A stretch of 64,000 nt of DNA. It comes from Roseimaritima multifibrata. GTDB lineage: Bacteria; Planctomycetota; Planctomycetia; Pirellulales; Pirellulaceae. The notes under the pieces were generated by a model. It was given only the letters and a program-made list of their open reading frames with translations, was not told where the DNA came from and did no database searches. The position numbers and the translations under genes are program-made. Positions 12,953 through 57,233 of this stretch are shown in pieces. The stretch lies in assembly GCF_007741495.1 (NCBI RefSeq), contig NZ_CP036262.1, positions 6,448,001 to 6,512,000 of the forward strand, read 5' to 3'. Position 1 is the stretch's first letter, and every line of letters starts with the position of its first letter.

Positions 12953-12971
12953 CGCGTCTCTCCGAGACGTG
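12953..12971 (+). terminator. Possible terminator hairpin after the epimerase
   Basis: Stem CGTCTC, loop TCC, GAGACG, extended by a wobble and one more pair, about 16 nt after the stop codon. No T-tract follows, so a rho-independent role is doubtful. A sibling palindrome, GAGTCTC-GGA-GAGACTC, occurs at 24878-24894, which favours a dispersed repeat. Confidence 0.3.
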
Positions 12972-13009
12972 CGATAAATAAGTTGCAAGTGTGGCAGGGA
13001 GAAAAGACT

Positions 13010-13110
13010 CCACGCCAGCTTGTCTGGCATGACGCCAAGATTTGAAATTAGTTTGCATCTCTAGTTTCAAATCTAGCGTCCCTGTCGGACAAGCCGACGA
13101 AGGGACGTGG
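13010..13110 (+). repeat. Three-hairpin dispersed repeat, copy C (short)
   Basis: Contains GCCAG-CTTGT-CTGGC, then AAGATTTGAAATTAG paired with CTAGTTTCAAATCT across a 9-nt loop, then TGTCGG-ACAAG-CCGAC. The order and sequence match copies near 24.6, 24.95 and 51.1 kb. This copy has the shortest spacer between the arms of the central stem and lacks the downstream conserved block. Confidence 0.75.
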
Positions 13111-13442
13111 GGGGGGGGCCGACGGTGCTCGCTTCCGCTGCATTCCGCTAGGAAACCTTAACTTATAAATCGCGTGCTCCCCGCGAAAGTAGCGTGGCGG
13201 TAGCGTCCCTTTGCGGAGCGACAGGCGACGCGAACGGAACTCTCGGTGTCTTAGGCGAAAAAGGAGTTTCTAACGTCTTTTGGTCCTGCAGGATTTACTG
13301 CGCACTCCCTCTAGATTCCTTCCCAAACTCGCTGCAAGGCATGGCATTTACTTGCCAACACGGTGCATCGCACCTAAAATCTACGGAAGCGTAGATTTAA
13401 GCATGACATCGTAAACAGCACTTTTTCTGTAAAGGCATGACC

Positions 13443-24566: not shown

Positions 24567-24855
24567 GCGGAATCGGCCCCATGCCAGCTTGCCTGGCATG
24601 AAGCAAAGATTTGAAGTTAGATCACATGCCTTAAATAGCTCACTCTCCGGTTCGGCTTGCCGCTGAAAGCGGCAAGCCGAACCGGTGGGAAGACGTGAGG
24701 ATGACCTCTGCTAATTTCAAATCTTTCGTTCCTGTCGGATAAACCGACAAGGGGACGCTGTGCCAGGGCGTTTCGTTAATCAATGTTGGTTGCGTCTTCC
24801 GGGGCGAGCGCATGGGAAGCAAACAATCCGTCACGAATGCGACCGACCTCCCCCG
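24567..24855 (+). repeat. Three-hairpin dispersed repeat, copy A
   Basis: Order of elements: hairpin CATGCCAG-CTTGC-CTGGCATG (24580-24600); left arm AAAGATTTGAAGTTAG (24605-24620); right arm CTAATTTCAAATCTTT (24711-24726), 16 pairs with one G-U; hairpin TGTCGG-ATAAA-CCGACA (24733-24749); then a conserved block to about 24855 (GGGGACGCTGTGCCAG, GTTGGTTGCGTCTTCC). Between the arms lies an extra perfect 18-bp hairpin (24647-24685). Copy B, 370 nt downstream, is nearly identical apart from a 45-nt difference. Confidence 0.85.
24647..24685. repeat. Perfect 18-bp inverted repeat inside copy A
   Basis: The arm CCGGTTCGGCTTGCCGCT (24647-24664), loop GAA, and its exact complement (24668-24685). Copy B retains only the left arm. 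As RNA or DNA it would form a very stable hairpin with a three-base loop. Confidence 0.85.
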
Positions 24856-24935
24856 AGGTGGAGAATTCAGCAAGCACGAGTCTCGGAGAGACTCTACTAC
24901 GTGCCGTTTACATACGACCGATTTGCAGCTTCCCA

Positions 24936-25181
24936 AGCGGAATCAGCCCCATGCCAGCTTGCCTGGCATGGAGCAAAGATTTGAAGTTAGATCACATGTC
25001 TTAAATAGCTCACCCTCCGGTTCGGCTTGCCGCTGCTAATTTCAAATCTTCCGTTCCTGTCGGATAAACCGACAAGGGGACGCTGTGCCAGGGCGTTTCA
25101 TTAATCAATGTTGGTTGCGTCTTCCGGGGCGAGCGCATGGGAAGCAAACAATCCGTCACGAATGCAACCGACGTCCCCCGC
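24936..25181 (+). repeat. Three-hairpin dispersed repeat, copy B
   Basis: Same order as copy A: the CATGCCAG hairpin, AAAGATTTGAAGTTAG and CTAATTTCAAATCTTC arms, TGTCGG-ATAAA-CCGACA hairpin and the conserved 3' block. It lacks 45 nt relative to copy A, including the right arm of the extra 18-bp hairpin. It ends about 40 nt before the stop codon of mnmG. Confidence 0.85.
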
Positions 25182-40496: not shown

Positions 40497-40517
40497 AATC
40501 CCGCAGCCAAGAAAAAA

Positions 40518-40555
40518 GTAGGCCGGATCAAGGAGCGAAGCGACGCAGCTCCGGC
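40518..40555 (+). repeat. REP sequence 1
   Basis: 38-nt palindromic repeat running GTAGGCCGGATC to AGCTCCGGC with nested complementary ends (GCCGGA/TCCGGC and GGAGC/GCTCC). One of six copies around the two RAYT genes. Confidence 0.88.
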
Positions 40556-40564
40556 GCCAGAAAA

Positions 40565-40602
40565 GTAGGCCGGACCAAGGAGCGAAGCGACGCAGCTCCG
40601 GC
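40565..40602 (+). repeat. REP sequence 2
   Basis: Same as copy 1 with one change (GGACCAAGG for GGATCAAGG). It marks the left end of the first RAYT unit. Confidence 0.88.
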
Positions 40603-40670
40603 AATCCCAAACCACCAAAAAGCGATTCGACAAATCCCACTCACGGACCTAATCCGACTCGCCGTTACAT

Positions 40671-41219
40671 CTATTCCCCCCAATCATCCTCGACGCCGCC
40701 AGGAGCTGTTCCGCCCCAATCGATATCGTATTGCCCCAACCTTACGAACCGATGGAACGACGACCACTGCCAATCACGAACTCGATCGACCAGTTTGTGC
40801 TTTCGAGGGTTCCAGTGAACGTAATCCGCACACCTTTCGAGATCTGCTTCATCACGAACGGTGTGTTCCCAGTATCGTGGCTGCCAAATCCCTCGTTCGC
40901 CACGCTTTCTTTGTGATTCGGTCACCACCGGCTCGGGCAACTCAGCTTCAAGCCATTGATCCGTAAACTTCGCCTTAATTTGTTTCATTCGCAGCGAGTA
41001 GCGATCATCGCCGGATGGCAATTGCATAATGAGATGCCAATGATCGGGCAACAATACGTTCGCCACAAGCAAAAAGGGGTGCCGCTTCCTTACCGACGTG
41101 AGGGAATTACGAAGGAACTCACGACCATCATCGGTAGTCAGAATCGGCCGGCGACCATACGTAACCACGGTGAAGAAAAACGTCCCCCCGGGCACAAAGT
41201 ACCGCCGATAATCAGACAT
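40671..41219 (-). CDS. REP-associated tyrosine transposase (RAYT), copy 1
   Basis: 182 residues, Y1/HUH single-strand nuclease family related to IS200/IS605 TnpA. The metal-binding HUH motif is in PDHWHLIMQLPS, and the catalytic Tyr is probably in CADYVHWNPRKHKLV, both standard for RAYTs. RAYTs cut and join single-stranded REP sequences. Both flanks carry REPs in inverted orientation. It differs from copy 2 by two residues (Glu/Gly and Arg/Gly), so the duplication is recent. The frame is intact and likely functional. RAYTs are domesticated and usually immobile; here duplication shows recent activity or recombination between REPs. Confidence 0.95.
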   Translation of the reverse strand: MSDYRRYFVPGGTFFFTVVTYGRRPILTTDDGREFLRNSLTSVRKRHPFLLVANVLLPDHWHLIMQLPSGDDRYSLRMKQIKAKFTDQWLEAELPEPVVTESQRKRGERGIWQPRYWEHTVRDEADLERCADYVHWNPRKHKLVDRVRDWQWSSFHRFVRLGQYDIDWGGTAPGGVEDDWGE

Positions 41220-41259
41220 CGCCCCTCCAGCTTCTTTGCACGAACCGCGTAGTTGCCCA

Positions 41260-41297
41260 GCCGGAGCTGCGTCGCTTCGCTCCTTGATCCGGCCTAC
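41260..41297 (-). repeat. REP sequence 3 (inverted)
   Basis: Exact reverse complement of REP copy 1, on the 5' side of RAYT copy 1. Confidence 0.88.
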
Positions 41298-41317
41298 TTT
41301 TCTTGTGACACCGATTA

Positions 41318-41355
41318 GTAGGCCGGATCAAGGAGCGAAGCGACGCAGCTCCGGC
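41318..41355 (+). repeat. REP sequence 4
   Basis: Identical to REP copy 1; left end of RAYT unit 2. Confidence 0.88.
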
Positions 41356-41424
41356 AATCCCAAACCACCAAAAAGCGATTCGACAAATCCCACTCACAGA
41401 CCTATACCCGACTCGCCGTTACAT

Positions 41425-41973
41425 CTATTCCCCCCAATCATCCTCGACGCCGCCAGGAGCTGTTCCGCCCCAATCGATATCGTATTGCCCCAACCTTACG
41501 AACCGATGGAACGACGACCACTGCCAATCACGAACTCGATCGACCAGTTTGTGCTTTCGAGGGTTCCAGTGAACGTAATCCGCACACCTTTCGAGATCTG
41601 CTTCATCACGAACAGTGTGTTCCCAATATCGTGGCTGCCAAATTCCTCGTTCGCCACGCTTTCCTTGTGATTCGGTCACCACCGGCTCGGGCAACCCAGC
41701 TTCAAGCCATTGATCCGTAAACTTCGCCTTAATTTGTTTCATTCGCAGTGAGTAGCGATCATCGCCGGATGGCAATTGCATAATGAGATGCCAATGATCG
41801 GGCAACAATACGTTCGCCACAAGCAAAAAGGGGTGCCGCTTCCTTACCGACGTGAGGGAATTACGAAGGAACTCACGACCATCATCGGTAGTCAGAATCG
41901 GCCGGCGACCATACGTAACCACGGTGAAGAAAAACGTCCCCCCGGGCACAAAGTATCGCCGATAATCAGACAT
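41425..41973 (-). CDS. REP-associated tyrosine transposase (RAYT), copy 2
   Basis: 182 residues, identical to copy 1 apart from two positions (EAGLPEPV and SQGKRGERG here, EAELPEPV and SQRKRGERG there). The HUH motif HWHLIM and the Tyr-containing CADYVHWNP segment are intact. The gene has the same promoter-proximal sequence as copy 1, since the whole unit was duplicated. Two functional copies side by side are unusual, because RAYTs are normally single copy per REP family in a genome. Confidence 0.95.
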   Translation of the reverse strand: MSDYRRYFVPGGTFFFTVVTYGRRPILTTDDGREFLRNSLTSVRKRHPFLLVANVLLPDHWHLIMQLPSGDDRYSLRMKQIKAKFTDQWLEAGLPEPVVTESQGKRGERGIWQPRYWEHTVRDEADLERCADYVHWNPRKHKLVDRVRDWQWSSFHRFVRLGQYDIDWGGTAPGGVEDDWGE

Positions 41974-42013
41974 CGCCCCTCCAGCTTCTTTGCACGAACC
42001 GCGTAGTTGCCCA

Positions 42014-42051
42014 GCCGGAGCTGCGTCGCTTCGCTCCTTGATCCGGCCTAC
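42014..42051 (-). repeat. REP sequence 5 (inverted)
   Basis: Reverse complement of REP copy 1, on the 5' side of RAYT copy 2. Confidence 0.88.
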
Positions 42052-42084
42052 TTATTCTGTGCCGGCGTATATCGCTGCTGCCCA

Positions 42085-42122
42085 GCCGGAGCTGCGTCGC
42101 TTCGCTCCTTGATCCGGCCTAC
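42085..42122 (-). repeat. REP sequence 6 (inverted)
   Basis: Additional inverted REP, 33 nt beyond copy 5, ending about 25 nt from the 3' end of the DUF1501 gene. Confidence 0.88.
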
Positions 42123-42145
42123 TATTCTACTATTCGGCGCGGGGA

Positions 42146-50452: not shown

Positions 50453-50960
50453 TTCGGTTCCTCCCCGCGCTTCAGATGCACGGACAGAGCGATGAAAGAA
50501 GTTATTCCAGGCGACCGACGGCCGCCTGCTCTACTGGATTCTAACCGCAGCCTTCCCGAATGCAAAACTGCAAAAAACGGAAGATTCCGACAATGGTTAA
50601 AATGCCAGCAGGTGACTCTATAGACGAAAACGGCACAAACGGGTTCGCGGAAAAAACAAAAAAAGTGAAATTTCGGGAAAAAGAGCGACAGGACATCTGA
50701 ACGCATAGAGCGTATGAAGCCGCAAAACGTGCAAGATCCGGGCGTCTGGCAGTCAGGCTAGCCACGGCGATTCGTCAGCGAAACAGCCTGAACCGGCCGC
50801 CCACTCCATCAGTCCCTTTGCCTAATCCGGCTTGTTGATCCTAGTGAGTGTCGCTTTTCGCTCGGGAGGTGCGATTTATAAATGACAGGTTTGGACTTCG
50901 CTGCGCCGATGGAATCCCACTCCGCGACGTAAGTTTTGAAGTTGCGATTTTTAGCGTTGG

Positions 50961-51150
50961 TTATTTTGCTTCCTCCGGGCTGGTCCCCAAAAGGTACAAC
51001 CAATGTTGACCGCCTAAACGCGCTGGCACAGCGTCCCCTGGTCGGTTTGTCCGACAGGAACGAAAGATTTGAAATTAGCAGCGGTCACCCTGATCTAACT
51101 TCAAATCTTTGCTTCATGCCAGGCAAGCTGGCATGGGGCCGACTCCGTTT
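50961..51150 (-). repeat. Three-hairpin dispersed repeat, copy D (inverted)
   Basis: On the minus strand it reads: CATGCCAG-CTTGC-CTGGCATG, then AAAGATTTGAAGTTAG, a 16-nt spacer, CTAATTTCAAATCTTT, TGTCGG-ACAAA-CCGAC, then GGGGACGCTGTGCCAG and a degraded form of the 3' block. The same order as copies A and B, in the opposite orientation. Confidence 0.82.
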
Positions 51151-51373
51151 GGCTACCGGAAGATCGACCACTTATAAATCGCACGCCCCCGCGAAAGAAC
51201 GCTCCCTCGAAGCTACTTTCGCGGTGCCAAAGGCGACAATCTTTCTCCGCTTTCGATTAAATCAACAAGCCGGCTTGCCAGACGACCGACGCCGTCTGGA
51301 AACCGACAAAGACATTATCAAAAACATCACACTCCCCCGGAATATCTTGACTTGTGTTGGCGAAGCGATCGCA

Positions 51374-54300
51374 TCAGCTTTCCCATTCCCCTAGACGAGC
51401 CGTCAGCCGTTTGATGTGCTTTTTCTGTTTCTCAATCATGGTCAAACCGACCAGAATCAGAATCCCACTACCAATCCCGAAGGCCCACCACGGCCAGGTT
51501 CGATCGAGTGCCGCTTGAGCATGCCAGACCATACTTAACACTCCGACCAGAATAAAAAACGTCCCCAAGTACAAGAACGACCGGACTCGCAGCAACACTC
51601 CACAAAGGACTCCAAGCATCGCTAACACGACCAAAAAGATAGGTCCCCAAATCGTCTGCCCAATTTCTTGCAACAACATGTCAGCGGTACTACTGACGTA
51701 AATCACCAACATCGCGCTATACCGGATGCCCGCTAAGAGTGCCGGTTTCAACCGTTTGCGTTCCAGATGGGCTGCCATCAAAACACAGATCGCTGGCGGG
51801 ATAAGCCACAACTGTGGATGTTCCCAGAACCCCCAAAATTCGGATTGCGTCAGACCGACCCACAACGCCGCGTTTCCCAGCAGGACGCCAAGAATCTTGG
51901 GCCATCGCTGGTCCGGCCAAATAATCGACACGCCGATATAGTAGATCCCAGCGACCGCTAACAGCACGGCATAGTCAACCTGTCCGCCAATATATAACCA
52001 TTCCGAATTCGCCCCTCCTACCCAATACCCAACCGCTGGGACCAGTGGCAGCAGTAGCGATGACTGACGCAGCGTGCCCGCCAAAAGCGTATCCTTGCGG
52101 CGCCGAGCCCATTCGACGATCGCCACGCTGAAAAATGCCAAGCCCATGACAACAAAGGGCCAATAGGCACGCAGCCCGATCGTGGCCAAGGGACTCTTGC
52201 AAAGATAGAGGTGCAGCCAAGTCAAGAAACCGATGATTTGCGCCGCGTAAATCGCAGCCCGACGAACCTCAGGACTAAGGATAGGCAAGACGCTTCGATC
52301 CTCTGGGTCATTTCGGCGAAGCGCAAGCAAGCTGACAGCCACACAAGTTGCCGCCAACAAACCGGCAATCCCCAAAACCAATGCCCTTGGCAAGGATTCG
52401 ACGGAACCATCGTCCCGAGCCATCAGTTCCAAACCGAACATGGCGACCAAAGCGATAACGGCGACGGTCAATCCTGCGCCCGCACCAACTCGCAACGGAC
52501 GCTTCCAATCGCCATCGGCCAGTCCCATCGTTCGAGGTACAAGCCAACCGAAAAGAGGCAGCAAAGCGATCCCCACGACCAACATCCGCATAACCACCAC
52601 CAATTCGCGAAAAGCACTTTGATGAGGAATAGCGATCGCAAGCAACAGGAACGCCCCGACAAACAGCAGCACCGTCGCGGTTCGCAACCAAGCATAGCGA
52701 ACCCCTGTTGCGATCGTTGCTAACGCCCATCCCGCCAAGAAGACCGCTGCGATCGCAAAGTAACGTGTCATCGGATGCGGTTCTTCCCACGCCGCATAGG
52801 TTGCAAACAAGAACAGTCCGCCAGCGGTCATCACGATCACGCGGTTGATTCGGAGGTTTGCGTTTTGATCCTCGGTTGCGTTCCAGCCCAGCCCCCAAAT
52901 CATCAGCTGCTTGCGTAAGATTTGGCGAAGGGGCCAAGCCCAGCAAAACAGTGCCAAGGTAAATCCTACGGCCAATGGCGGCAGCGCCAGCCGACGCTCC
53001 GCCGACAAAGCGGGCTGCACTGCGTCTGCGATCAAGACAATACTTGCCATCATCAGCAGGAAGGCCCCTTCCACCTGCAATGGCCTGCCGATCCGCAATA
53101 CCGTCGACACGGCAATCAAACTGGTCCCCAGCACGGCAACCCCCGCGATTCCCCACGCTACCTCCGTGGCCGGCATATCGGCAAACTGAGCCAACACCAC
53201 TCCGACAAGCGAGAACACGGCCAGGATTAATCCGACGGGCTCCGAAGCAACGTATTGATTCGGAAGTGGACGCGAAACGCTCAAGCGAGCAAGCAACAAA
53301 GTCCCTGCAGTCCAGACAAACACCAGCAACAAGGCTTGCGTGGTCCCATCGGCATACCATCCACAATACAAACAACCCGCCAGCACTCCCGCACAACCCG
53401 ACAATTGCCCAACCCCGTACGACAATCGCTTTGCCGCCCCGGCAGCATTGGAAAACAGCGTTGCTAAACTGCCCGTCTGGTGAAGCACCACGCAGCCGAC
53501 CAAACCAAACATCATCCCCATGTCATCATTGGGCATAAGACTCCACGCGACTCCGGCGACGACGCCTCCCTTCAGAACCGCTGCCCACCAATCTTGGATT
53601 CGTTTTGAATCCCAGTGGACCATCACCGCATCGCATACGGCCGACAGACTAAAGCCCCCTAACAACCAAATTTTCGCGTCCGCGGCTCCCACCCATCCAC
53701 GGCCGATCGCCAACGCAATGACAGGCGACCACAGCAGAATCACAAGATTGCTTGCGTTAATGCCCAGCCCGCACGTTCGCTTCCCAAGCCAACGACCTAA
53801 CAAGAGCGCCGCCCCGACGAAACTGACGTTCGCGATCGAGACGTTTTGTCCCGCAGAAAACGGCTCAAACCAAACCCACGGAATACAGATCACCGCAAAT
53901 GCAACCGCCAGAATAAATGCAGCAGTGGTCAGACCTTGAACAGGTAACGGCCAAGCACCTTCATATTTGGTAGCGAGCTGAAGATTTCCCGTGTCTGGGG
54001 TGGACGGCTGTGACACCTCACGAAGCGAGTGCCTTTCTATCTGGCGAACCAATCCGGAAATCACCGCCAACCGCTGTAGCGCGACAGCAAGCAAGATTCC
54101 CCAACCGATGACCGCCCACTGCTGCCAACCGTCATCCAACCAAAGGACTGCGGTCAGATAAGCAACAAAGGGAACAAGAACGGCCGCCCAAGCCCCCATG
54201 ATCTCTTTTCGCAGCACGACTGAAGCGATTGAAAAACCGAGTATCGCGACCACACCCCAACCGACAAGCACTGCGATGGTATTCGATCCATCGGAAGAAA

Positions 54301-57001
54301 CTTGATCGCCAAACCAAGGCAGATGGTTTATCAACAGCAGACAGGTGAAAGCCGTTACAACCAATCCACCCCAGATCGTGCCTTGAGAGACAAACGCTTT
54401 CCAGACCGGTTCTCTCGACATTTGCTTGCGACTGGAAAAATCATTTCGCTGCGTGCAAGCGATCCACCAGGCAACCGTTAGCAACACACTCGTCAATACA
54501 ATAAGGGCGGAACCGATCCACAGCAGACGGTCGGGTCGGTCGGCAAAAGCCCATCCAAACCACCAAGTCATCCCCGCAAAAAACGACCAAGCCAGCAGGC
54601 TAATCCACTTTTGCCGCTGGGCAGAGACAAGCAGGCAATAGGAGACTACCCACGCACTAACAATCGCCATTGCCACAGCGGGAAGCAACGGAATCTCATT
54701 CAGCATGACAAGCGAATACTCGCCTGCTCCGGATTCGGCAAGGACCAACCGCACGACTGCCAGGATGCCTAAGACACCAATCGCCAGAAAAGCGATTCCC
54801 CCACAAATAATGTCGGGCGTCCACTCGCGAAATCCTCCGCTAAGTCGCAGCGGAAAGACTTTTCGGACCGTTCCTCTGAGGAGGTTCCAAACGAGTCCAT
54901 ACGCGGCCAGTGCACCGATCCACCACCATGCGGCGTCTCCGTCGACAATCGCGTCTAGACCAATCAAGCGATCGGGCAGCAACCGAGCCATCGTAAAACC
55001 GATCGCCAACAAACAGGTCAGTTGCCCGATTCGCAACATCCACAATCGATAGCGCCGAACCGTCATGTCTAGCGGTTGACGATGAGCATCGTGAGGTCGT
55101 TTGTTTATGACAACCGAAGCCATGATGGCGATCAGGCCGATCACTCCCAACACGCCAACCGCCGATGGCCAGGACCGGTCAAGACTGGCGAACGACCAAC
55201 CAAGCCAAGCACAGGCAACGGCCAACACAACGGCACTTACCAACCAAAAAGCTCCGGCGACTGCCAAACTGAACGACCAGGATGTCCGCTTCAAACTTGG
55301 AACCACGGGTAAGTTCGCAAGTGCTGCAGGACGCCCTTGTCCGGTATCGACGGATACGCAACGCGACAACAACAGCAACCCAACCCCATACAGCGTCGCC
55401 AACCAAAGCGCTTCATCCGTCAGCAAGAACCACCACAGCGTAGACAATCGTCCCCAAGGCTGATCTCCCATCCACCAGGGAAACAAGAGCATTGCCGAAG
55501 CGCCAACCGCCATCGCTGCAACGCCTAGCAATGCGTCAATTCGCAAACGGAAAGCCATCAGCACGGCCGGAACCGCAATCAGCACTCCCCATGCAAGCAA
55601 CCACCGTGGCTGTCCCAAGACTGCGGGAAATATTCCGGCCAGCAGCAGCATCGATGTCAATGCAATCGCCACCCCTGCAAAGGCTTGCCACTTCCGCGTC
55701 GACCGCCGCAACCGCCACCCCATTCCACAACCAGCCAAGCCAAGCGGCGTTATGGCAACCGCAATCAAAACAAACGTGGTTGCCGTGCGGGGAACCTGCA
55801 ACACCAAGAACCCGACTAAGACCAACATTGCGTACAACCCGACGCCAAACACCAGCAGAAGATTCCAACCGGCGACAGGACGAACGATCTGTAGAAATTC
55901 TCCACGACGCGAGCGACGTCCAGCCAACATCACGATCGCCAATGCGACCAAACTTGAAACACCAATCAATCCCCAGCATGCATTCATCCCAAACTGACGC
56001 AACAGTGCAGGAACCGCTGGCAGCACCATGGTTGGCGCCCCAATCGCAACCATCCACCACACGGTGTTGTGTTGTCGGACCAACGCTTTGCCCGCCAACC
56101 ACAAGGCGACCAAATAACAGATTGCTCCGACAAAAACAAAACCAAGGGTTGCCGGATCGCCCAGACGCACCGGGGTCTCTCCTGCACTGGCAACGGCCAT
56201 CCCCGTCACCACACTCAAGGGGATCAACAAAGATGCGATCGTCAATACGGCTCGGCTGGTTTGTCGCAGACGCCAGCGTTTCAGCGTGTATAGCCCGGCT
56301 CCCTCAATTGCCAGCGTGCCCCCCAAGAAAACGAGCGAAGGAAGTAACCGATGGGTTTCGGTCAATGGGCTCCAAAGGCTGATCACCAGTCCTATCGAGC
56401 AAAACACAATCAATAGTCCGGCGATCAATTCGCCCCAGCGAATGTTATGGGCCACCAAGAAGTGGCTGAGTATTTCGGCGAAGGCTCGCCGCGCCGGCGG
56501 AGGAGGCACGCGATCGACCTGCGCTGCCCCGGCGACCAAACCTGCTTCGACCACAGGAACGGCAGCCACTGGCGGTTCCTCTTGATCAAGAGGATGAACG
56601 CCTGCGGGGTACTGATTGGCTGGGCTGGGACGGAGAGGGATCGGACTGGTAGCAGCAAACGGTTTGTCTGCAGAGGATGCCGGTTGGTCTTGGACAAGCG
56701 AAGCGGAGATCGGGCTGTCGGGAAAGACCAGACTCGCCTGTTCGCGTCCCAGGTCATGCAGTCGATCCGATTCGGCGGCATCCAAACGTCCCCGTTCGGT
56801 TAGCGCATCGACCACTCGCTTATAACCGAAAAGATCCCGTTGCTGAGCGACTCGAGGGTCCGCAGCCTCTACCGGGCGTTCCACTATAGAGGCAGAACTA
56901 CCGAATAATCCACGCAGTACGAATGCGACGGATATCCAGATTACATGGCCAACCAGCGTGACCACCAGCAAGATAACGGCGAAGACAATCAGATAAGTCA
57001 T
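51374..57001 (-). CDS. Giant polytopic membrane protein of unknown function
   Basis: 1875 residues from the ATG at 57001; a TTG six codons earlier is the other option. The N-terminus has one membrane helix (MTYLIVFAVILLVVTLVGHVIWISVAFVL), then a cytoplasmic stretch to about residue 180 with a short helical segment (FGYKRVVDALTERGRLDAAESD). The remaining 1700 residues are several dozen hydrophobic segments in near-continuous series, with short loops containing Trp and Arg (WRLRQTSRAVLTIASLL, GWGLGWNATED). No recognised transporter motif, glycosyltransferase or nucleotide-binding site was found. The C-terminus is basic (KQKKHIKRLTARLGEWES). It stands alone on its strand. It is intact and uninterrupted, so it is not a decaying gene. 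Relation to DUF2157/DUF2339-type membrane proteins is a guess. Confidence 0.88.
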   Translation of the reverse strand: MTYLIVFAVILLVVTLVGHVIWISVAFVLRGLFGSSASIVERPVEAADPRVAQQRDLFGYKRVVDALTERGRLDAAESDRLHDLGREQASLVFPDSPISASLVQDQPASSADKPFAATSPIPLRPSPANQYPAGVHPLDQEEPPVAAVPVVEAGLVAGAAQVDRVPPPPARRAFAEILSHFLVAHNIRWGELIAGLLIVFCSIGLVISLWSPLTETHRLLPSLVFLGGTLAIEGAGLYTLKRWRLRQTSRAVLTIASLLIPLSVVTGMAVASAGETPVRLGDPATLGFVFVGAICYLVALWLAGKALVRQHNTVWWMVAIGAPTMVLPAVPALLRQFGMNACWGLIGVSSLVALAIVMLAGRRSRRGEFLQIVRPVAGWNLLLVFGVGLYAMLVLVGFLVLQVPRTATTFVLIAVAITPLGLAGCGMGWRLRRSTRKWQAFAGVAIALTSMLLLAGIFPAVLGQPRWLLAWGVLIAVPAVLMAFRLRIDALLGVAAMAVGASAMLLFPWWMGDQPWGRLSTLWWFLLTDEALWLATLYGVGLLLLSRCVSVDTGQGRPAALANLPVVPSLKRTSWSFSLAVAGAFWLVSAVVLAVACAWLGWSFASLDRSWPSAVGVLGVIGLIAIMASVVINKRPHDAHRQPLDMTVRRYRLWMLRIGQLTCLLAIGFTMARLLPDRLIGLDAIVDGDAAWWWIGALAAYGLVWNLLRGTVRKVFPLRLSGGFREWTPDIICGGIAFLAIGVLGILAVVRLVLAESGAGEYSLVMLNEIPLLPAVAMAIVSAWVVSYCLLVSAQRQKWISLLAWSFFAGMTWWFGWAFADRPDRLLWIGSALIVLTSVLLTVAWWIACTQRNDFSSRKQMSREPVWKAFVSQGTIWGGLVVTAFTCLLLINHLPWFGDQVSSDGSNTIAVLVGWGVVAILGFSIASVVLRKEIMGAWAAVLVPFVAYLTAVLWLDDGWQQWAVIGWGILLAVALQRLAVISGLVRQIERHSLREVSQPSTPDTGNLQLATKYEGAWPLPVQGLTTAAFILAVAFAVICIPWVWFEPFSAGQNVSIANVSFVGAALLLGRWLGKRTCGLGINASNLVILLWSPVIALAIGRGWVGAADAKIWLLGGFSLSAVCDAVMVHWDSKRIQDWWAAVLKGGVVAGVAWSLMPNDDMGMMFGLVGCVVLHQTGSLATLFSNAAGAAKRLSYGVGQLSGCAGVLAGCLYCGWYADGTTQALLLVFVWTAGTLLLARLSVSRPLPNQYVASEPVGLILAVFSLVGVVLAQFADMPATEVAWGIAGVAVLGTSLIAVSTVLRIGRPLQVEGAFLLMMASIVLIADAVQPALSAERRLALPPLAVGFTLALFCWAWPLRQILRKQLMIWGLGWNATEDQNANLRINRVIVMTAGGLFLFATYAAWEEPHPMTRYFAIAAVFLAGWALATIATGVRYAWLRTATVLLFVGAFLLLAIAIPHQSAFRELVVVMRMLVVGIALLPLFGWLVPRTMGLADGDWKRPLRVGAGAGLTVAVIALVAMFGLELMARDDGSVESLPRALVLGIAGLLAATCVAVSLLALRRNDPEDRSVLPILSPEVRRAAIYAAQIIGFLTWLHLYLCKSPLATIGLRAYWPFVVMGLAFFSVAIVEWARRRKDTLLAGTLRQSSLLLPLVPAVGYWVGGANSEWLYIGGQVDYAVLLAVAGIYYIGVSIIWPDQRWPKILGVLLGNAALWVGLTQSEFWGFWEHPQLWLIPPAICVLMAAHLERKRLKPALLAGIRYSAMLVIYVSSTADMLLQEIGQTIWGPIFLVVLAMLGVLCGVLLRVRSFLYLGTFFILVGVLSMVWHAQAALDRTWPWWAFGIGSGILILVGLTMIEKQKKHIKRLTARLGEWES

Positions 57002-57233
57002 GCAAAGCTCAGCCAGCAAACGAGATAGGTACCTATCTATAGAGAGCCTACCGTTTAAATGGCTACGCGTAAAAAAAGCAGATTCCGCCCGTTAACCCGG
57101 AATTCATGCCTGCTTATCACGAAACCAGTGCTTAAATCGCCCCTCCTAAGCCCCATGCCCCGGCCTTTCCTCGCGTGAGTTCAGCGTTCCGCGCGGCATC
57201 GGTATACGCAAGTATCTCCTACACGTCCGTTTT

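Follow-up and report, generated by a model that had tools for sequence, protein, structure and literature searches.

The repeat that occurs four times in the window (the whole 64-kb stretch of DNA analysed here, bases 6448001-6512000 of a single contig of 7,216,590 bp) forms the core of a mobile unit that is larger than the repeat itself and is bounded by terminal inverted repeats (TIRs). The unit is present in many copies across the genome, it lies within hairpins far more often than expected by chance, a single nucleotide is duplicated where it has inserted, and the fold of its core has been conserved over a long time. We consider it probable that the copies, some of them decayed, are those of a non-autonomous, MITE-like transposon that has a preference for hairpins and is moved in trans.

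Four copies in the window

The preliminary description had placed copies of the repeat at 13010-13110, 24567-24855, 24936-25181 and, inverted, 50961-51150, and all four are present at these places. The extent first given was too small for the first and the last of them, which run from TIR to TIR (12964-13180 and 50864-51189). The four copies are as follows.

12964-13180, plus strand: copy A, 217 bp from TIR to TIR, with one and four TIR mismatches; core at 13005-13107, without the apical hairpin
24567-24855, plus strand: copy B, no recognisable TIR; core at 24574-24757 with all three stem-loops and with the 3' block after it
24936-25181, plus strand: copy C, core at 24944-25082 with the 5' arm only of the apical hairpin; no recognisable TIR
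50864-51189, minus strand: copy D, 326 bp from TIR to TIR, with one TIR mismatch at each end; core at 51032-51141

The same ordered parts had been ascribed to all four copies. The hairpin H1 (arms CATGCCAG/CTGGCATG), the long-range stem of the core (15 bp, AAGATTTGAARTTAG/CTAATTTCAAATCTT) and the hairpin H3 (CTGTCGG/CCGACA on a CGTTCC/GGGGACG base) can indeed be aligned over all of them, with one broken pair in H1 of copy A (CACGCCAG/CTGGCATG). The apical hairpin, however, is missing from D as well as from A and is incomplete in C, and the 3' block that had been called conserved is found in B, C and D but is absent from A. Copies B and C form a local tandem pair. The left end of copy A adjoins the repeat palindrome CGTCTCTCCGAGACG, and this copy has no flanking stem (score 2); copy D lies inside a hairpin with the arms TTTCGC/GCGAAA, a flanking stem of 6 bp. 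Beside copy D there is also an open frame of 1,881 aa (window 51374-57019) that has no Pfam match at E 1e-5.

A unit bounded by terminal inverted repeats

Although four copies were correctly counted in the window, the repeat is not restricted to it. A DNA search of the 7.2-Mb genome gave 71 matches, some of which are the same palindromic place read on the opposite strand. From the fetched loci we extracted 44 cores by pattern, and 35 of these were aligned, identical ones being left out. A covariance model was built from the 35-core alignment, and the genome-wide search that had been suggested as a check returned 67 matches in this genome, both strands counted, among them about ten places that lie outside the 44 and outside the alignment.

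The cores, of about 184 nt, are enclosed by a 20-bp TIR with the consensus GGGACGTGCGATTTATAAGT, the middle of which is TT, AT or AA. We observed this TIR to the left of 37 of the 44 cores and to the right of 34; 41 have it on at least one side and 30 on both, and 146 of 1,793 random stretches have one. No TIR is seen at the remaining three, which comprise copies B and C of the window and one further core at 6703322. Allowing up to two mismatches, the inner 15 bases of the TIR occur at 183 sites in the genome, against 7 for the reversed pattern; the corresponding counts are 119 against 5 for the AA form and 118 against 0 for the 20-mer. There are 17 near-intact copies of 292 bp, each with at most two TIR mismatches, and near-identical dispersed copies were found at 12 places (97-100% over a 290-base query). 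TIRs on both sides of a short unit and several near-identical copies at unrelated sites are features of a MITE. Together with the hairpin targets and their empty counterparts, for which the evidence is given below, the common TIRs and the near-identical dispersed copies support the structured mobile element that the preliminary description had offered as one reading.

It is extremely improbable, in our judgement, that the copies are chance palindromes or local duplications only. The tandem pair of B and C would agree with local duplication, as would three further copies in a repeated region that looks Rhs-like by eye, but the 44 cores have mostly unrelated flanks and the excess of the TIR (183 sites to 7) is large. 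The three copies in question, at 3901101, 3903098 and 3906126, have the same orientation, and the peptide encoded by the repeated region around them resembles Rhs/YD repeats by eye; given this location, we rejected the idea that the three cores near 3.90 Mb are the ends of a larger transposon.

Other hairpin-rich elements, for example of about 111, 334 and 404 bp, carry the same TIR without the full core. Among the elements with this TIR, one family (about 394-404 bp) has long palindromic arms, and the 111-bp element is found in a tandem array of four.

Insertion into hairpin loops with a one-nucleotide duplication

For an analysis of the flanks, 68 TIR-bounded elements were taken from four genomes, and 12 with similar flanks were dropped to leave 56. 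The flanks form a perfect stem of 5 bp or more at 26 of the 56, as compared with 10.7% when 5' and 3' flanks are randomly paired, and the highest value among 5,000 such shuffles was 24%. After removal of the common repeat palindromes, stems of this length are found at 10 of 24 elements (null mean 0.8, highest of 10,000 shuffles 5), and among the near-intact 292-bp copies they are found at 12 of 17. The arms differ from copy to copy (e.g. GGCCC..GGGCC, CGATGC..GCATCG, ATTGCCT..AGGCAAT, GATTTC..GAAATC), and at 18 of the 26 elements they start exactly 2 nt from the element ends on both sides.

The base preceding the element is the same as the first base following it in 23 of the 26 cases with a stem (shuffled mean 8.1, maximum 17) and in 38 of all 56 elements, whereas two-base identity is seen in 4 of 56. 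Longer target duplications were rejected, since identities of 2 to 9 nt occur in 0 to 4 of the 56. In 377 kb of fetched sequence there are 52 empty copies of four common target palindromes, and GGA or TCC is the loop of all but one of them (51); these empty hairpins are other copies of the repeat palindromes and not the same locus in a sister strain. Filled palindromes typically read GG-element-GA or TC-element-CC. Given that the empty loops are of 3 nt and the filled ones have this form, we conclude that insertion occurs in the middle of the loop and that the loop centre is duplicated. When 12 empty sites were joined, open frames of 56 to 172 codons ran across them, lengths that point neither to nor away from the disruption of genes by insertion. 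No stem of 5 bp or more is found at 30 of the 56 elements, some of which are decayed copies, and some may have gone into other targets.

Possible relation to transposases of the IS1182 family

In the examined stretches of this genome, inspection by eye found no transposase gene between or beside these TIRs. As candidates for an autonomous copy, we considered and rejected the TIR pairs 987, 2,096 and 2,542 bp apart among the sites listed, which enclose genes that by eye are host-like. The same holds for 31 TIR sites, most of them partnerless, whose surroundings (2.5 kb) contain open frames that are host-like on the same visual grounds.

Some IS1182 elements favour palindromes, and this genome contains three IS copies of 1,795 bp, near 3016493, 4618435 and 6173633, with 100% identical transposases of 551 aa that belong to the IS1182 family (NF033551, 312 bits, cut-off 270). 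All three lie in hairpin loops and have 4 nt of the loop duplicated: the first insertion reads CCGTTGGC-GTAA/GTAA-GCCAACGG, the second CCGGCGGC-GTCA/GTCA-GCCGCCGG, and the third has TTAC/TTAC. A relative in genome G001 also lies in a hairpin loop with a 4-nt duplication, and a copy in genome G196 lies in a palindrome, with no duplication. Given that both insert into hairpin loops, the MITE works like a hairpin inserter of the IS1182 type, which does not in itself establish membership of the family. Indeed, the IS1182 element of this genome duplicates a whole 4-nt loop, against 1 nt for the MITE, and although its TIR (GGGCTGTTGATTTATTC) is loosely like GGGACGTGCGATTTATAA, the similarity is not exceptional: the score of 7 between the IS1182 end CGGGCTGTTGATTTATTC and the MITE TIR is equalled or exceeded by 148 of 5,322 GGG-starting 20-mers, in a control pool that had not been cleared of all decayed TIRs, and the scores of further IS1182 ends range from 3 to 8. 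The IS1182 domains PF13751 and PF05598 have no hit in the TIR-carrying genomes G002, G181, G182 and G244. Whether a trans-acting transposase would belong to the IS1182 family, or resemble it, we regard as evenly balanced.

Hairpin targeting has been described for IS1272 and TnSha1 of staphylococci, both members of the IS1182 family (PMC5678879, PMC4923244). They are TIR-bounded and target hairpins, often terminators, that have little sequence in common; each has its own transposase gene, removes or replaces part of the hairpin on insertion and makes no duplication. The MITE in this genome, in contrast, has no gene and a different TIR, keeps both arms and duplicates one nucleotide of the loop. 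Insertion sequences such as IS1397 recognise particular REP palindromes and so resemble it in having palindromic repeats as targets, but here unrelated hairpins are used too, namely the 10 stems among 24 non-repeat targets.

A few mobile elements are known to choose their targets by the shape of a hairpin, and the choice of DNA hairpins by a transposase is known from a limited number of staphylococcal insertion sites. In full-text searches of open-licence papers we found no description of a MITE with a hairpin-loop target and a 1-nt duplication. The family described here offers dozens of alignable insertions with a 1-nt duplication and with empty counterparts that have a 3-nt loop, and the same genome also holds an IS1182 element that duplicates a 4-nt loop; with so many insertions, the empty 3-nt loops and two sizes of duplication, the geometry of hairpin-directed transposition becomes testable.

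REP-like hairpins in the core

H1 is related to the complement of H3: on the opposite strand, the H1 pattern picks out H3, and the covariance model matches many copies on both strands. Therefore, the core looks like two REP-like hairpins in inverted orientation. H3 ends in GGGGACG, which is CGTCCCC on the other strand, and these bases are paired in the fold; no GTAG tag was found at the ends of the hairpins of the core. REPs tagged with GTAG or CGTC are described in PMC3733652 and PMC6006769.

An arrangement of this kind could be REPIN-like: an inverted REP pair whose multiplication depends on a Y1 (HUH) tyrosine transposase of the RAYT/TIRYT group and whose outer arms are the TIRs. The kinship of H1 with the complement of H3 and the copies matched on both strands would agree with this, and there are 8 Y1 matches in this genome, two of them in the window, named REP-associated tyrosine transposase; but no match of the core to the Y1 loci of this genome was found at E 1e-4 (1.5 kb on each side), where TIR ends and other modules did match. 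In G002, other REP modules that are enclosed by TIR elements are found next to Y1 genes as well (76-78% identity over 211 bp), in a comparison whose control loci themselves contained elements and so were of no use as a control. Since REP modules are enclosed in this way, the TIR element seems to be a carrier of REP pairs. Y1 genes flanked by TIRs have been described (PMC3733652), but of 30 Y1 loci scanned in five genomes a single one has a good TIR nearby, at a distance of about 1 kb and in a separate element, and we therefore rejected Y1 transposases as the owners of the TIR. In addition, the copies end at the TIRs and not at the REP pair, and the Y1 genes of the window are flanked by GTAG-type REPs of a different sequence. 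We judge the REPIN-like explanation rather unlikely. The likeness to REPINs/BIMEs and RAYT/TIRYT systems (PMC3733652, PMC6006769) lies in the inverted pair of REP-like hairpins and in the presence of Y1 genes; the difference is that the moving unit here is bounded by TIRs outside the REP pair and that neither these hairpins nor this TIR were found to accompany a Y1 gene.

In the window, the gene of the REP-associated tyrosine transposase (NF047646) is duplicated within 40502-42128, at 40671-41219 and 41425-41973 on the minus strand, and is surrounded by six copies of a GTAG-type REP palindrome in both orientations, which makes it a tandem REPtron.

Conservation of the fold

Single-copy folding, which covered the core of copy B, bore out the fold into three stem-loops: this core folds far better than 200 dinucleotide shuffles, with a z-score of -9.8 as RNA and -10.0 as DNA. 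The alternation of G-U with A-T in the long stem, which had been pointed out between two of the window copies, holds in the alignment as well, where 20 of the 35 copies have A-U at columns 43/155 and 14 have G-U. Within the genome, changes on both sides of a pair are seen in 12 of the 52 pairs of the 35-row alignment, 11 of the 12 being in the apical hairpin, and the sequence of the outer stems is strongly conserved. The loop of the apical hairpin occurs in both orientations, as GAAA in 10 and as TTTC in 14 of the 35 rows, in copies that are otherwise similar (window 24640-24680 and other copies). Given that a loop within a perfect palindrome is flipped at the level of the DNA, covariation within the genome is poor evidence for selection on RNA; the two orientations point instead to an inversion of the DNA or to repair of the palindrome from a template.

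The core is also found in the two genomes of another family that were searched, G040 and G058; a covariance-model search of 40 genomes found it in two, one of which is this genome, and the TIR pattern has no match in G040 and G058. Between this genome and the other family, both sides have changed in 13 of 35 core pairs, and 96.4% of the cells that should pair do so, in a test whose structure was derived from one of the sequences compared. These values are higher than in any of 500 shuffles and far above slid registers; a weaker measure, further pair types between the families, was equalled by 30 of the 500. The covariation between families indicates that the fold of the core has been kept for long, and it is silent on whether DNA or RNA is the folded molecule. 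Selection on a folded molecule, as proposed in the preliminary description, thus agrees with the long conservation between families, but it draws little from the changes within the genome, which lie mostly in an apical hairpin with a flipping loop.

The strong fold of the core, the 13 of 35 pairs that covary between families and the conserved outer stems might also be expected of a dispersed structured RNA (a small RNA, riboregulator or terminator) under selection on the folded transcript. We hold this to be improbable, given that the copies are TIR-bounded units in unrelated flanks, that the fold is equally exceptional as DNA and as RNA, that flipped loops occur, and that the near-intact element DNA matches this genome alone among the 60 searched. 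Rfam has no match at the gathering score in the 64-kb window, and three matches in 681 bp are below that score; an Rfam family was rejected as an explanation on this ground. A palindrome of mobile DNA can thus pass for a new structured RNA in a covariance search.

A proposed model for transposition

For the MITE-like transposon, we hypothesize that the element would move as one unit, from TIR to TIR, by means of a transposase supplied in trans. Its preferred target would be a hairpin, with shape counting for more than sequence in the recognition, and insertion would take place at the centre of a loop of about 3 nt, with both arms kept and the central nucleotide of the loop duplicated. In the core, H1 and H3 are arranged around the long stem like REP hairpins in an inverted pair, and the fold may serve the element itself, for instance when it is single-stranded or extruded as a cruciform, instead of a host RNA. 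As a more specific and more doubtful proposal, we suggest that the enzyme, perhaps not of the IS1182 type, might recognise the tip of a hairpin or cruciform and join the element ends to positions on the two sides of the loop that are one nucleotide apart, so that both arms remain intact, with REP-type pairs carried inside; the papers searched do not describe such a mode of transposition. REP-type hairpin pairs within a TIR element would amount to palindromes nested in palindromes.

Distribution among relatives

The TIR 20-mer, with up to two mismatches, is present in 11 of 241 genomes of the family. Those with at least five sites are this genome (118), G002 (30), G182 (15), G244 (10) and G181 (5), and the 20-mer is found in neither G001 nor G003, which belong to the same genus. 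The patchy occurrence fits mobile DNA. A scan of the GTDB collection, from which records near this genome may be left out, gave a single TIR hit, in a Nitrospirota MAG, where about 4 are expected by chance, and a search of viral contigs gave none. Genome G010 contains a related type of element with the TIR GGTCGTGCGGTTTAGAAGT, for which there are at least 14 identical TIR sites among the matches listed.
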